Shown piece after piece: positions 20,775 to 24,678 of a stretch of DNA of 64,000 nucleotides. Each line of letters opens with the position of its first letter. The stretch's first letter is position 1. The DNA lies in NCBI GenBank assembly GCA_002239005.1, contig MPNL01000003.1, forward strand, positions 1-64,000, written 5' to 3'. The notes below the pieces were generated by a model. It saw nothing but the letters and a program-made list of their open reading frames with translations, did no database searches and was not told the DNA's origin. This DNA comes from Truepera sp. bin119 (GTDB taxonomy: Bacteria > Deinococcota > Deinococci > Deinococcales > Trueperaceae). Both the position numbers and the translations under genes were made by a program.

Positions 20775-21581
20775 ATGGTAGAGATCGACCTTAAGGGAAA
20801 GAACGGCCTCGTCTTAGGCGTGACCAATCAGCGTTCGATCGCCTGGGCCATCGCACGTCCCCTCGCGGAGGCTGGCGCGCGCCTAGCGTTCGGCTACCAG
20901 CTGGACAGGCTCAGGCCGACCCTCGAGAAGCTCACCAGTGGGTTGGGGGGGACCATACTGGCGGAGTGCGACGTGCAAGACGACGACCAGCTTGACGGGC
21001 TGTTCGAGGTGGTGGAGGGGGAGATGGGGAACCTCGATTTCGTCGTTCACTCGCTCGCCTTCGCTCCCCAGGAGACCTTCACCTCTCCCTTCGTTGAGAC
21101 GGATAGGGAACAGTGGCGGGTCGCGATGGACGTTAGTGCCTATTCGCTCGTGGCTGTCGCCCAGCGTGCGGCCCCGCTCATGACCCAGGGGGGTAGCATT
21201 ATCACGCTCACCTACCTTGCGGCGGAACGGGTGGTTCCTCACTACAATATGATGGGCGTGGCCAAGGCGGCGCTTGAGGCTAGTATGCGGTTCCTCGCTT
21301 ATGATCTGGGTGCTAGGGGCATTCGGGTGAACGCCATCAGCGCGGGTCCGCTCCGGACGGTCGCAGCACGGTCCATCTCGGGTTTCGCCGACATCTACTC
21401 TGAGGCGGGCAAGCTCTCTATGCTTCGTCGCAACATCACCCAGGAGGAGGTGGGCGGGCTGGCCCTCTCTCTGATCAGTGATCGCCTCGGTGGGGGTATT
21501 ACCGGTGAGACCGTGTACGTCGACGCCGGCTATCAAGCGATGGGCATGTTTTTGCAAGAGCCAGACGGTGGGCCTGGCTAG
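20775..21581 (+). CDS. fabI: enoyl-ACP reductase I
   Basis: 268 residues. It catalyses the last reduction of each fatty-acid elongation cycle with NAD(P)H. The atypical SDR signature of FabI is present: GVTNQRSIAWAIARPLAEAG at the cofactor site, and the Tyr-x6-Lys pair in HYNMMGVAKAALE. The conserved NAISAGPLRTVAARSISGF follows, and the C-terminus reads GETVYVDAGYQAMGM. A good AGAGGAG binding site precedes the ATG. It is a single gene before the trp leader; the product is the target of triclosan-like inhibitors in other bacteria. Confidence 0.93.
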   Translation: MVEIDLKGKNGLVLGVTNQRSIAWAIARPLAEAGARLAFGYQLDRLRPTLEKLTSGLGGTILAECDVQDDDQLDGLFEVVEGEMGNLDFVVHSLAFAPQETFTSPFVETDREQWRVAMDVSAYSLVAVAQRAAPLMTQGGSIITLTYLAAERVVPHYNMMGVAKAALEASMRFLAYDLGARGIRVNAISAGPLRTVAARSISGFADIYSEAGKLSMLRRNITQEEVGGLALSLISDRLGGGITGETVYVDAGYQAMGMFLQEPDGGPG

Positions 21582-21652: not shown

Positions 21653-21658
21653 TATACT
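21653..21658 (+). promoter_or_regulatory. -10 box of the trp operon, leaderless
   Basis: TATACT, then CCGACT, then ATG of the leader peptide at 21665. The spacing of 6 bases means the leader peptide would be read from the very 5' end of the mRNA. No clear -35 box was found. Confidence 0.62.
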
Positions 21659-21664
21659 CCGACT

Positions 21665-21727
21665 ATGTCCTGCCTCTTCTCTTGGACCGGCGTCCTAGGG
21701 CGATGGCGCGCACGCGTGCCCTTCTAG
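21665..21727 (+). CDS. trpL: trp operon leader peptide with two Trp codons
   Basis: A 20-residue frame, MSCLFSWTGVLGRWRARVPF, with Trp at positions 7 and 14, ends in TAG 87 bases before trpE. It is too short for ordinary gene calling. Two Trp codons in 20, a matching TATACT promoter and its place directly before trpE argue strongly for an attenuation leader. Ribosome stalling at the TGG codons (21683 and 21704) under tryptophan starvation would change downstream folding. In contrast to the enteric leader, there is no ribosome binding site because the mRNA should start at the ATG. Confidence 0.72.
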   Translation: MSCLFSWTGVLGRWRARVPF

Positions 21728-21775
21728 AGCACGCGCCCTTGCTGGTCGTTACCGGACCGCGACCCGAGGGTCGTA
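21712..21775 (+). promoter_or_regulatory. candidate attenuator hairpins of the trp operon
   Basis: CGCGTGC (21713-21719) pairs with GCACGCG (21729-21735), overlapping the trpL stop. Downstream, CGACC (21760-21764) can pair either with GGTCG at 21744-21748 or with GGTCG at 21769-21773, the latter closing a CGAG tetraloop. The two pairings exclude each other, as in an antiterminator/terminator switch. A U-tract is lacking, so termination might need a factor, or control might act on trpE translation. Confidence 0.45.
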
Positions 21776-21813
21776 AAGACCGCTAGTTCAGGATAGATAG
21801 AGGACGGTTTAAG

Positions 21814-23250
21814 GTGGGAATTCCAACGTGCAGCACCGCGAAGGTCGGGCCGGTCTACCGCTCGATCCTCGCTGATTTAGAGACCCCTCTCACAGCCTTT
21901 CTCAAGGTCGCCGGGCACCCGAGTTTCCTGCTTGAGAGCGTGGAGCAGGGTGAGCACATCGCCCGTTACTCATTCATCGGCACCGGGGCGCGCAGGCGCC
22001 TGGAGGCCCGGGGGACCCGGGTCAGTGTCACCACCCCCGAAGGGGTCAGGGAGTTCGATTCGGACGACCCCCTAAAGACCCTCTGGGAGATGACTGTGCG
22101 CGAGGCCGATCAACCCCCGGATCTGCCAGACTTCTGGGCGGGTGCTGTGGGCTTCGCCGCCTACGACCTCATTCGGCTCTATGAGAAGCTCCCCGATGAG
22201 AACCCGGATGAACTGGGCGTGCCCGACCTGCTCTTTATCGAACCCGAGGTGCTCGTGATTTTCGATCATCTCGAGAGGCGCCTTAGCATAGTGGCGCTGG
22301 CGCTCGTGGGCGATGAGGCCGACGAGGGGCGTGCCCTCCAGCTCGTGAACGAGACCTACGCCCGGCTCCGTGGCCCGCTCCCCGGTGTCCCCGGCGACCG
22401 CGCCGGGAAAAGGACAGAATTCCGGGCCAACTTCACCCGTGAGAGATACATGGAGGCTGTGGCCCGTTCGGTGGAGTACATCCGGGCGGGAGATGTTTTC
22501 CAGGTTGTCCCCAGTCAGCGGCTGTCGGCCGACCTTGGCGTGCATCCGTTCGCCGTCTACCGGGCGCTCCGAGCCATCAACCCCAGCCCCTATCTCGGCT
22601 ATTTGGACCTCGGACCGGTGACGCTGGTTGCCTCGAGCCCGGAGAGTCTCGTCCGGAGCGACGGAGACCGGGTGGAGACATTACCGATCGCTGGGACAAG
22701 GCGGCGCGGCGTGACCCCCGAGGAGGATGCGGAGCTGGCTGAGGAACTTCTCGCCGATGAGAAGGAGAGGGCGGAGCACATTATGCTTGTGGACCTGGGA
22801 CGTAACGACCTCGGCCGGGTGTGCCGCTACGGCTCGGTTCGGGTCGACAACCTCATGCGGGTCGAACGTTACAGCCACGTGATGCATATCGTCTCCACTG
22901 TCTCCGGCAATCTGGTGAAGGGGCGAACCCCCCTCGACGCCTTGGCGAGCACCCTCCCTATGGGCACGGCTAGCGGCGCCCCGAAGGTGCGGGCGATGGA
23001 GATCATCGACGAACTCGAGCCGGTCCGCCGTGGCCCCTACGCCGGGGCGTTCGGCTACGTCTCGGTCACCGGCGCCATGGACATGGCTCTGACCCTCCGC
23101 ACGGTTGTGGTGACGGGGGGGAGGATCCACCTGCAGGCTGGTGGCGGCGTGGTCGCCGACAGCGACCCCGCGTTCGAGTATCAGGAGAGCCTTAACAAGC
23201 TCGCTGCACTCCGCAAGGCGGTTGAGATGGCTACCGAGGGGCTGGGCTGA
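21814..23250 (+). CDS. trpE: anthranilate synthase component I
   Basis: 478 residues. It converts chorismate and ammonia to anthranilate, the first step of tryptophan synthesis. The N-terminal region has [19 protein letters not shown], containing the LLES motif that binds feedback-inhibiting tryptophan. The catalytic half shows [49 protein letters not shown] and [13 protein letters not shown]. The GTG start at 21814 follows GAGGA. The stop TGA shares a base with the trpG ATG, so the two subunits are translationally coupled. Control is probably by the leader peptide upstream and by feedback inhibition. Confidence 0.96.
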
Positions 23251-23829: not shown

Positions 23830-24678
23830 ATGTCGCCACCCTTGATCTCAGTAATTACAGTGACCCGTAACCGACGCCTGCTGATGATGCGCAAACTAGA
23901 GTCGCTCGCCCGGCAGACGGTGGCGTCCGGTCTGTTCGAGGTGGTGGTATGCGTCAACGGTGACGGGCAGGGCACGCTTCAGGCGCTCGAGGCCGCCGAC
24001 CCACCCTTCAACCTCCTAGCCTTCGCCTTTGCCGAGAACCGGGGGGCCTCGGTGGGCCGCAACGCCTGCGTCCGCAGGGCGCGGGGCCACCTGCTCTACC
24101 TCTCCGACGATGATTGCATGCTGAGGCCCGAGACCTTGGCTTGCCACCTTGAGGTGCAGCGGGAGGCCCCCGGGGTGTACCAGGGGGGTGTGCGCTTTCA
24201 CCAAGAGGGTGGGGGGTGGGAGGATCTCCTCCCCGGTCGCCGGCTGCGCTACTGGAACTTCCACGGGGTGAACACGAGCCTTCCAGGCGACCTGTTCCGG
24301 GTCGCGGGGGGCTTTCCAGAGTGGCTCAGCACCTACGGTCACGAAGATGTTCTCTTGGGCTTTCATCTTGAGCGTGCTGGCCATCGGTTGCGACCCCTTC
24401 GTGGGGCCGAGATCGACCATGTCGGTTCGAACCCGGTGTCTGCAGGGGATAGGAACAAGGCCCGAAGCGCAGGCAGCAACGCCGCCAAGATCGCGGTCCG
24501 TTTCCCGGAGATGGCCTTCCAGTTGGGCGTCCACCCCTGGCTCTTGGCGATCAAAAAGCTCCTGCTGGGGCCGCTCGTCGGGGGTGTCCTCGCGCACATC
24601 GATCCGGGCAGGGTCGCCTACGAACGTGCCTATCTCACCGGGGCTCTGGAACAGAGGGGGGAGTTGAATCATGACTAA
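23830..24678 (+). CDS. family 2 glycosyltransferase inside the trp operon
   Basis: 282 residues, GT-A fold. ISVITVTRNRRLLMMRKLESL opens the nucleotide-binding domain, followed by FAENRGASVGRNACVRRARG and the metal-binding LLYLSDDDCML (DxD). A mid-region GHEDVLLGFHLERAGHRL is the usual acceptor/catalytic ED motif of GT2. A short hydrophobic stretch near the C-terminus (LAIKKLLLGPLVGGVLAHI) may touch the membrane. It begins 4 bases after trpG and overlaps trpD by 8 bases, so it is a true operon member although it has no known link to tryptophan. The sugar donor and acceptor are unknown. Confidence 0.87.
   Translation: MSPPLISVITVTRNRRLLMMRKLESLARQTVASGLFEVVVCVNGDGQGTLQALEAADPPFNLLAFAFAENRGASVGRNACVRRARGHLLYLSDDDCMLRPETLACHLEVQREAPGVYQGGVRFHQEGGGWEDLLPGRRLRYWNFHGVNTSLPGDLFRVAGGFPEWLSTYGHEDVLLGFHLERAGHRLRPLRGAEIDHVGSNPVSAGDRNKARSAGSNAAKIAVRFPEMAFQLGVHPWLLAIKKLLLGPLVGGVLAHIDPGRVAYERAYLTGALEQRGELNHD

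Follow-up and report, generated by a model that had tools for sequence, protein, structure and literature searches.

Upstream of trpE in a member of the Trueperaceae (Deinococcota), we identified a short frame containing two Trp codons. It probably encodes a leaderless leader peptide through which translation of trpE is attenuated in response to tryptophan. In the window, by which we mean the whole 64,000-nt stretch of DNA analyzed here, located on contig 33 of a 3.2-Mb draft genome, and in related genomes, we observed the leader frame and its conservation, a conserved spacing to a -10 box, specific co-variation between the leader and the trpE ribosome-binding region, and no terminator.

Locus, leader frame and -10 box

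The presumed regulated gene, trpE (21814..23250; this and all leader features below are on the plus strand), starts with GTG and encodes anthranilate synthase component I (Pfam PF00425 and PF04715). An enoyl-ACP reductase-like gene (20775-21581) precedes the trp leader, and trpE is followed by trpG, a glycosyltransferase gene, trpD and a pdxS-like gene. The glycosyltransferase gene (family 2; window 23830-24678) separates trpG from trpD, whose start it overlaps; in the related genome G009, a glycosyltransferase-like gene likewise stands ahead of trpD. Throughout the comparison, trpE start codons were picked by the position of the Shine-Dalgarno (SD) sequence; at L009 (G021), the best-placed start, following AAAAGGAG, is ATT, with no ATG, GTG or TTG in frame.

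The leader peptide frame, MSCLFSWTGVLGRWRARVPF, presumably leaderless, occupies 21665..21727 and comprises 20 codons from its ATG at 21665 to a TAG stop at 21725-21727. Its first Trp codon is codon 7 (21683..21685), which falls within a helix formed with the trpE ribosome-binding site and is lost or replaced in some relatives. The second, codon 14 (21704-21706), is preceded by the rare Arg codon CGA, and the two are contained in the motif CGATGGC (21701..21707), 36 nt from the start codon. The preliminary description of this DNA had given the TATACT box, the ATG, the 20 codons and TGG at codons 7 and 14, all of which are correct base for base; it had further read the frame as a trp leader peptide that is leaderless and senses through its Trp codons, and had proposed a comparison with relatives as a check. 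We carried out this comparison on the regions upstream of trpE in nearly all genomes of the same family with a trpE match, together with 19 loci from other families of the order, and recovered in other Trueperaceae genera the same box at 6-8 nt followed by a related peptide before trpE. The frame, the box spacing and the Trp codons are conserved across these genera, the opposite of the outcome that had been named beforehand as refuting the proposal.

In related genera, the short frame reads M....SWTGxLGRWRR or a close variant and lacks an SD, with the core WTGxLGRWR retained across genera. Trueperaceae frames from independent genera include MVVPPSWTGVLGRWRR, MNATSSWTGVLGRWRR, MFNSFSWTGVLGRWR, MHVLHSWTGALGRWR, MQALYSWTGALGRWR, MISPHSWTGALGRW, MYCFSWTGVLGRWR and MTSLHRWTGALGRWRR, and variant leaders occur in genera g13 and g16 (MFPPLSWLEPRRWRR, MPFQLEPQRWRL and DRRWRR). 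There is free variation at the third position of the Thr, Gly, Val/Ala and Leu codons, and the distance from the ATG to CGATGGC is exactly 36 nt in most Trueperaceae leaders. In every two-Trp Trueperaceae leader behind a TATACT or TAGACT box, the last Trp is preceded by Arg encoded as CGA, a codon used for only 1-14% of the Arg residues of TrpE in the same genomes; these genomes share ancestry, so no p-value is attached to this invariance. A motif search for TANNCT-N5-9-ATG-N20-34-CGATGGC over all 39 family genomes recovered the trpE leader in 13 genomes, along with scattered other matches. In the incomplete genome G009, it retrieved a leader, MNIFSKTRLWLGRWR..., directly upstream of another trp gene, trpD. 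This trpD leader (L189, G009:C484:3500-6500, at about L189:311) carries a TATACT box and CGATGGCG, and lies between the glycosyltransferase gene and trpD. The trpE upstream region of L032, from a Trueperaceae metagenome-assembled genome, is the same as that of G011 (L006) in the same family. At the level of sequence, these comparisons confirm the leader reading frame as real and conserved beyond chance.

The -10 box TATACT (21653..21658) lies 6 nt ahead of the leader ATG, a spacing conserved at 6-8 nt in relatives, with TAGACT in place of TATACT in genus g14; no SD for the leader fits in the six bases separating box and ATG. Across the host genome, TATAMT-N5-8-ATG occurs 59 times, against 20 occurrences of the reversed pattern and 21 at a spacing of 20-23, and 17 of the 18 other matches to TATAMT-N6-ATG begin frames of at least 100 codons. 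Two of these N6 matches, read from their sequence without a family search, we take to be a tryptophanyl-tRNA synthetase (L175) and a TrpF-like phosphoribosylanthranilate isomerase (L143). By these counts, TATAMT-N6-ATG marks putatively leaderless genes across the host genome. In Deinococcus-Thermus, a -10 motif adjoining the start codon yields leaderless mRNA, a common mode of expression (PMC12340547). Because of the host-genome statistics and this precedent in the phylum, the 5' end of the transcript is very probably the leader ATG or next to its A. Among the matches of the -10 pattern search, we also observed a dispersed repeat of the host genome, beginning TATACTGGTANCGGGGATGG...TCATG, six times (for example, G000:C22:20748, C34:31126, C48:20951, C53:52164, C68:5744 and C1:53888).

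Pairing between the leader and the trpE ribosome-binding region

In the minimum free energy fold of 21665-21824, the first nine codons of the leader pair with the region preceding trpE, forming a helix that we term P1. Its 5' arm (21667..21691; leader nt 3-27), which would act as an anti-ribosome-binding-site element, is supported by both the fold and co-variation, and its 3' arm (21782..21805) contains the trpE SD, AGAGGAC (21799-21805). The paired segments are 21667-21671/21801-21805, 21675-21677/21795-21797, 21680-21687/21786-21793 and 21689-21691/21782-21784; since these pair across 21782-21805, the trpE SD lies within the helix, with an SD-leader pairing probability of 0.86 in the host genome. 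Most Trueperaceae leaders have the same architecture with differing sequences, such as CACUCCUGG/CCAGGAGUG in L012 and UUUCUUGGAC/GUCUAAGGAG in L015.

The helix register shifts between genomes, and column-by-column alignment of the arms was therefore dropped as a means of counting pairs. We used instead a swap test, in which leader nt 1-36 and trpE -38..+3 were exchanged between genomes and the stabilities of the native and swapped duplexes compared, with duplex energies that ignore co-transcriptional folding. Native duplexes were more stable than swapped ones across 20 genomes (-551 vs -450, sd 18) and across the 16 leaderless genomes (-424 vs -338, sd 15), each with p 5e-5, the floor set by the number of permutations. 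With one genome per genus, the test gave z -5.2 and p 1e-5, with 11/11 negative; the co-variation of the arms across genomes ranged from z -5.2 to -5.7, and other window sizes gave z -3.1 to -4.6. A control window just inside trpE showed no co-variation with the leader (z -0.05), and a two-dimensional scan resolved a single antiparallel ridge at leader 0-30 x trpE -40..-10. The leader and the ribosome-binding region also paired to a greater extent than under either null model (synonymous-codon, combined p 1.8e-6; shuffle, 2.3e-7). In the host genome alone, the synonymous-codon null was not significant (p 0.50), so that the case rests on the family.

P1 pairing was not convincing in G001 (L010) or G009, both AT-rich with longer leaders, and the arms pair weakly in G016 (L004). 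As a held-out test of P1, G009 had a duplex of its own no better than shuffles; its swap residual was negative despite this.

A second hairpin region, P2 (21702..21750), is nested in P1, with a 5' arm that begins at the second Trp codon; here, 14 nt from CGATGGC co-vary with a window 25-39 nt downstream (z -4.1). The preliminary description had also pointed to CGACC (21760-21764) as able to pair alternatively with GGTCG at 21744-21748 or 21769-21773. Both complementarities are real, but no conserved feature points to a switch: GCGACC/GGTCGT (21759..21774; arms 21759-21764/21769-21774), in the loop between the P1 arms, is simply a local hairpin of the window with no U-tract after it and no conserved counterpart. 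We likewise set aside a possible second frame from the ATGGC of CGATGGC, which by eye stops after 2-5 codons in L009, L010 and L015 and is not a conserved gene.

Proposed mechanism and competing explanations

Under translational attenuation, the transcript would start at the ATG at 21665 or immediately beside it, with direct loading of a ribosome on the 5' AUG. With ample Trp-tRNA, the 20-codon frame would be cleared, leader nt 3-27 would refold onto 21782-21805, and the trpE SD would be hidden, resulting in poor trpE translation. With scarce Trp-tRNA, UGG7 or UGG14 would hold the ribosome up, and another may queue behind; the leader would then be kept from folding back, leaving the trpE SD open for translation. 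Of this scheme, we infer where the transcript starts, that ribosomes stall and may queue, and which way the response runs. In a folding model, masking leader nt 1-34 raised the openness of the SD from 0.20 to 0.37, a moderate opening, and a ribosome at the stop codon left it at 0.18. A ribosome at UGG7 would cover the P1 arm directly; the better-conserved Trp codon, codon 14, lies outside P1, the buried one being codon 7. In the model, a lone ribosome at UGG14 left SD openness at 0.20, and a second ribosome behind it raised this to 0.36. Hypothetically, the constant 36-nt spacing would suit a ribosome held at UGG14 with another loading on the 5' AUG; a role for the slow CGA codon is a hypothesis of the same kind. 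A more elaborate version, which we put forward tentatively and consider doubtful, is a two-ribosome gate formed by this spacing and the invariant CGA-UGG codon pair, in which CGA in the P site would sharpen the stall at UGG14 and a second 70S ribosome, loading on the exposed 5' AUG roughly one ribosome length behind, would complete a pair covering the whole anti-ribosome-binding-site arm; if this were true, leaderless initiation would be part of the switch itself.

The lack of a U-tract in the window, as originally described, is confirmed, and in the window and nearly all Trueperaceae the stretch from leader to trpE contains no hairpin followed by a T-run; from the second Trp codon to trpE, T4 runs are absent from Trueperaceae leaders save in two AT-rich genomes. 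The preliminary description had left the mechanism open between factor-dependent termination and control of trpE translation, and the pairing of the leader with the ribosome-binding site narrows it toward translational control of trpE over an intrinsic terminator. The missing U-tract would also suit the first of these options, in which Rho-type termination occurs in the untranslated stretch before trpE once the leader has been cleared and a stalled ribosome prevents it. Rho often gains access to mRNA whose ribosome-binding site is hidden, and such termination could act jointly with translational attenuation. We nevertheless consider it unlikely as the explanation, as it does not account for co-variation of the leader arm that is specific to the trpE ribosome-binding site; on a non-systematic look, we also saw no conserved unpaired element rich in C.

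The alternative pairings first described would suggest classical trp-type transcription attenuation, in which hairpins compete and an intrinsic terminator is used. Just such an arrangement is seen in other families of the order, where leaders such as MKRFAVRFWWWPG, MALFSARWWPG and MQRVRTNWWWQLG follow the pattern M...WW(W)PG and a stop, -10-like boxes lie mostly 6-8 bases from the ATG, and a strong GC hairpin followed by a T-run was present in 18/19 loci. The AT-rich G001 likewise has a hairpin from the second Trp codon followed by T-rich sequence. As an account of the Trueperaceae leaders, classical attenuation is very improbable, given that the window and nearly all members of the family lack a hairpin with a T-run and that the position of the stop codon relative to the last Trp codon is highly variable (1 to about 20 codons). 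Only outside the Trueperaceae do contiguous UGG codons prevail, the two Trp codons of the host leader being seven codons apart. Because the other families have the hairpin and T-run together with low SD-leader pairing (mean probability 0.06), the leaderless Trp leader appears to be common to the order and its output to differ, with intrinsic termination elsewhere and hiding of the trpE ribosome-binding site in the Trueperaceae. If so, one sensory leader peptide has been wired to two outputs within a single bacterial order.

Conservation of the non-Trp residues TGxLGR over varying third codon positions could instead point to the peptide itself, acting through nascent-chain arrest or in trans like Sinorhizobium meliloti peTrpL, for which there is precedent (PMC7298713). 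We regard this as most improbable: pairing with the trpE region accounts for some of the conservation (UGG AC), and several relatives retain only RWR. Control by a T-box, TRAP or TrpR was rejected, as there was no Rfam match to a T-box or other known RNA family at E<=5, and neither TRAP (TrpBP) nor TrpR (Trp_repressor) proteins were found in the host genome.

Related systems and variants among relatives

Translational attenuation at this locus would share with the E. coli-type trp attenuator a short leader frame before trpE and ribosome stalling on Trp codons; it differs in having no leader SD and no terminator hairpin with a U-tract, and in its proposed output, trpE translation. In the same phylum, leaderless transcripts of Deinococcus deserti are reportedly predicted to encode attenuator leader peptides, which are said to be transcription attenuators, a view that fits the terminators seen in the other families of the order; the Trueperaceae version has no terminator. 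The trpL mRNA of S. meliloti starts at the ATG of the leader peptide (PMC7298713). It resembles the host leader in where the mRNA would begin, but there trpLE(G) is regulated by attenuating transcription, with a small RNA set free in the process (PMC7298713); the host locus has no visible terminator. A leaderless trp leader is therefore not without precedent. Attenuator-like leaders without terminators have also been described upstream of cys operons in Actinobacteria (PMC1262725). The preliminary description had referred to attenuation in the trp operons of Proteobacteria; the organism here is not a proteobacterium but a member of the Deinococcota.

In erm-type translational attenuators, which sense macrolides, a stalled ribosome governs the downstream ribosome-binding site, and the erm and rtpA leaders both use an SD. 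In the polycysteine attenuators of mycobacteria, stalled ribosomes reportedly block structures that hide a downstream ribosome-binding site. The rtpA leader peptide of B. subtilis controls anti-TRAP translation (Chen and Yanofsky 2004, via PMC11255114), where the host leader would act on trpE. In both the erm and the rtpA systems, a stalled ribosome governs access to a downstream ribosome-binding site, as is proposed for the host locus. The mycobacterial attenuators are leaderless polycysteine short ORFs acting on downstream genes (Canestrari et al. 2020, via PMC9031893) and resemble the system proposed here, with its presumably leaderless sensory frame, in that ribosome speed on the frame controls the downstream gene through attenuation. 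They differ in sensing cysteine through contiguous Cys codons in Actinobacteria, where the host has two spaced Trp codons and belongs to the Deinococcota, and in that here the leader frame itself would be the arm pairing with the trpE ribosome-binding site. Our search, which covered the open-access literature, turned up no account of this element in Trueperaceae and none of a trp leader in which the peptide frame doubles as the sequence that hides the ribosome-binding site of trpE. The present system would add tryptophan, and a distant phylum, to the leaderless translational attenuation known for cysteine in mycobacteria, and could offer a natural system for studying ribosome queuing on leaderless mRNAs and the role of a rare CGA before the sensing codon.

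Among the relatives, several loci depart from this arrangement. The closest relative by trpE, G002 (L003), keeps TATACT and the leaderless ATG ahead of a frame, MCSRSFCTGFLHS, that ends in a stop codon, and has lost both Trp codons and CGATGGC. Genus g6 (G005, G018 and G024; L026, L030 and L031) has a single-Trp frame, ERWRRG, with CGA TGG CGT and no -10 box; it lies about 50-120 nt upstream of the trpE start, and the end of the upstream reductase gene either overlaps it or adjoins it. Judged from this arrangement, the leader has apparently moved from leaderless to coupled translation, and pairing with the ribosome-binding site was not supported for G005 and G018. In genera g11 and g16, the upstream reductase gene is mostly followed directly by trpE, without a leader. 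At L112 (G003), trpE itself is seemingly leaderless (TATGCT, 7 nt, ATG), with no leader peptide. A further conserved arrangement, TACACT or TAGACT followed by a short ATG frame and GGGAGGTGGTGCCGTGGACGATGGC, was observed at G029:C8:147854, G019:C11:411176, G036:C4:23102, G025:C3:63959, G033:C43:32967, G006:C1:2214515 and G014:C100:12200, and is possibly another leaderless upstream frame, overlapping a gene start.
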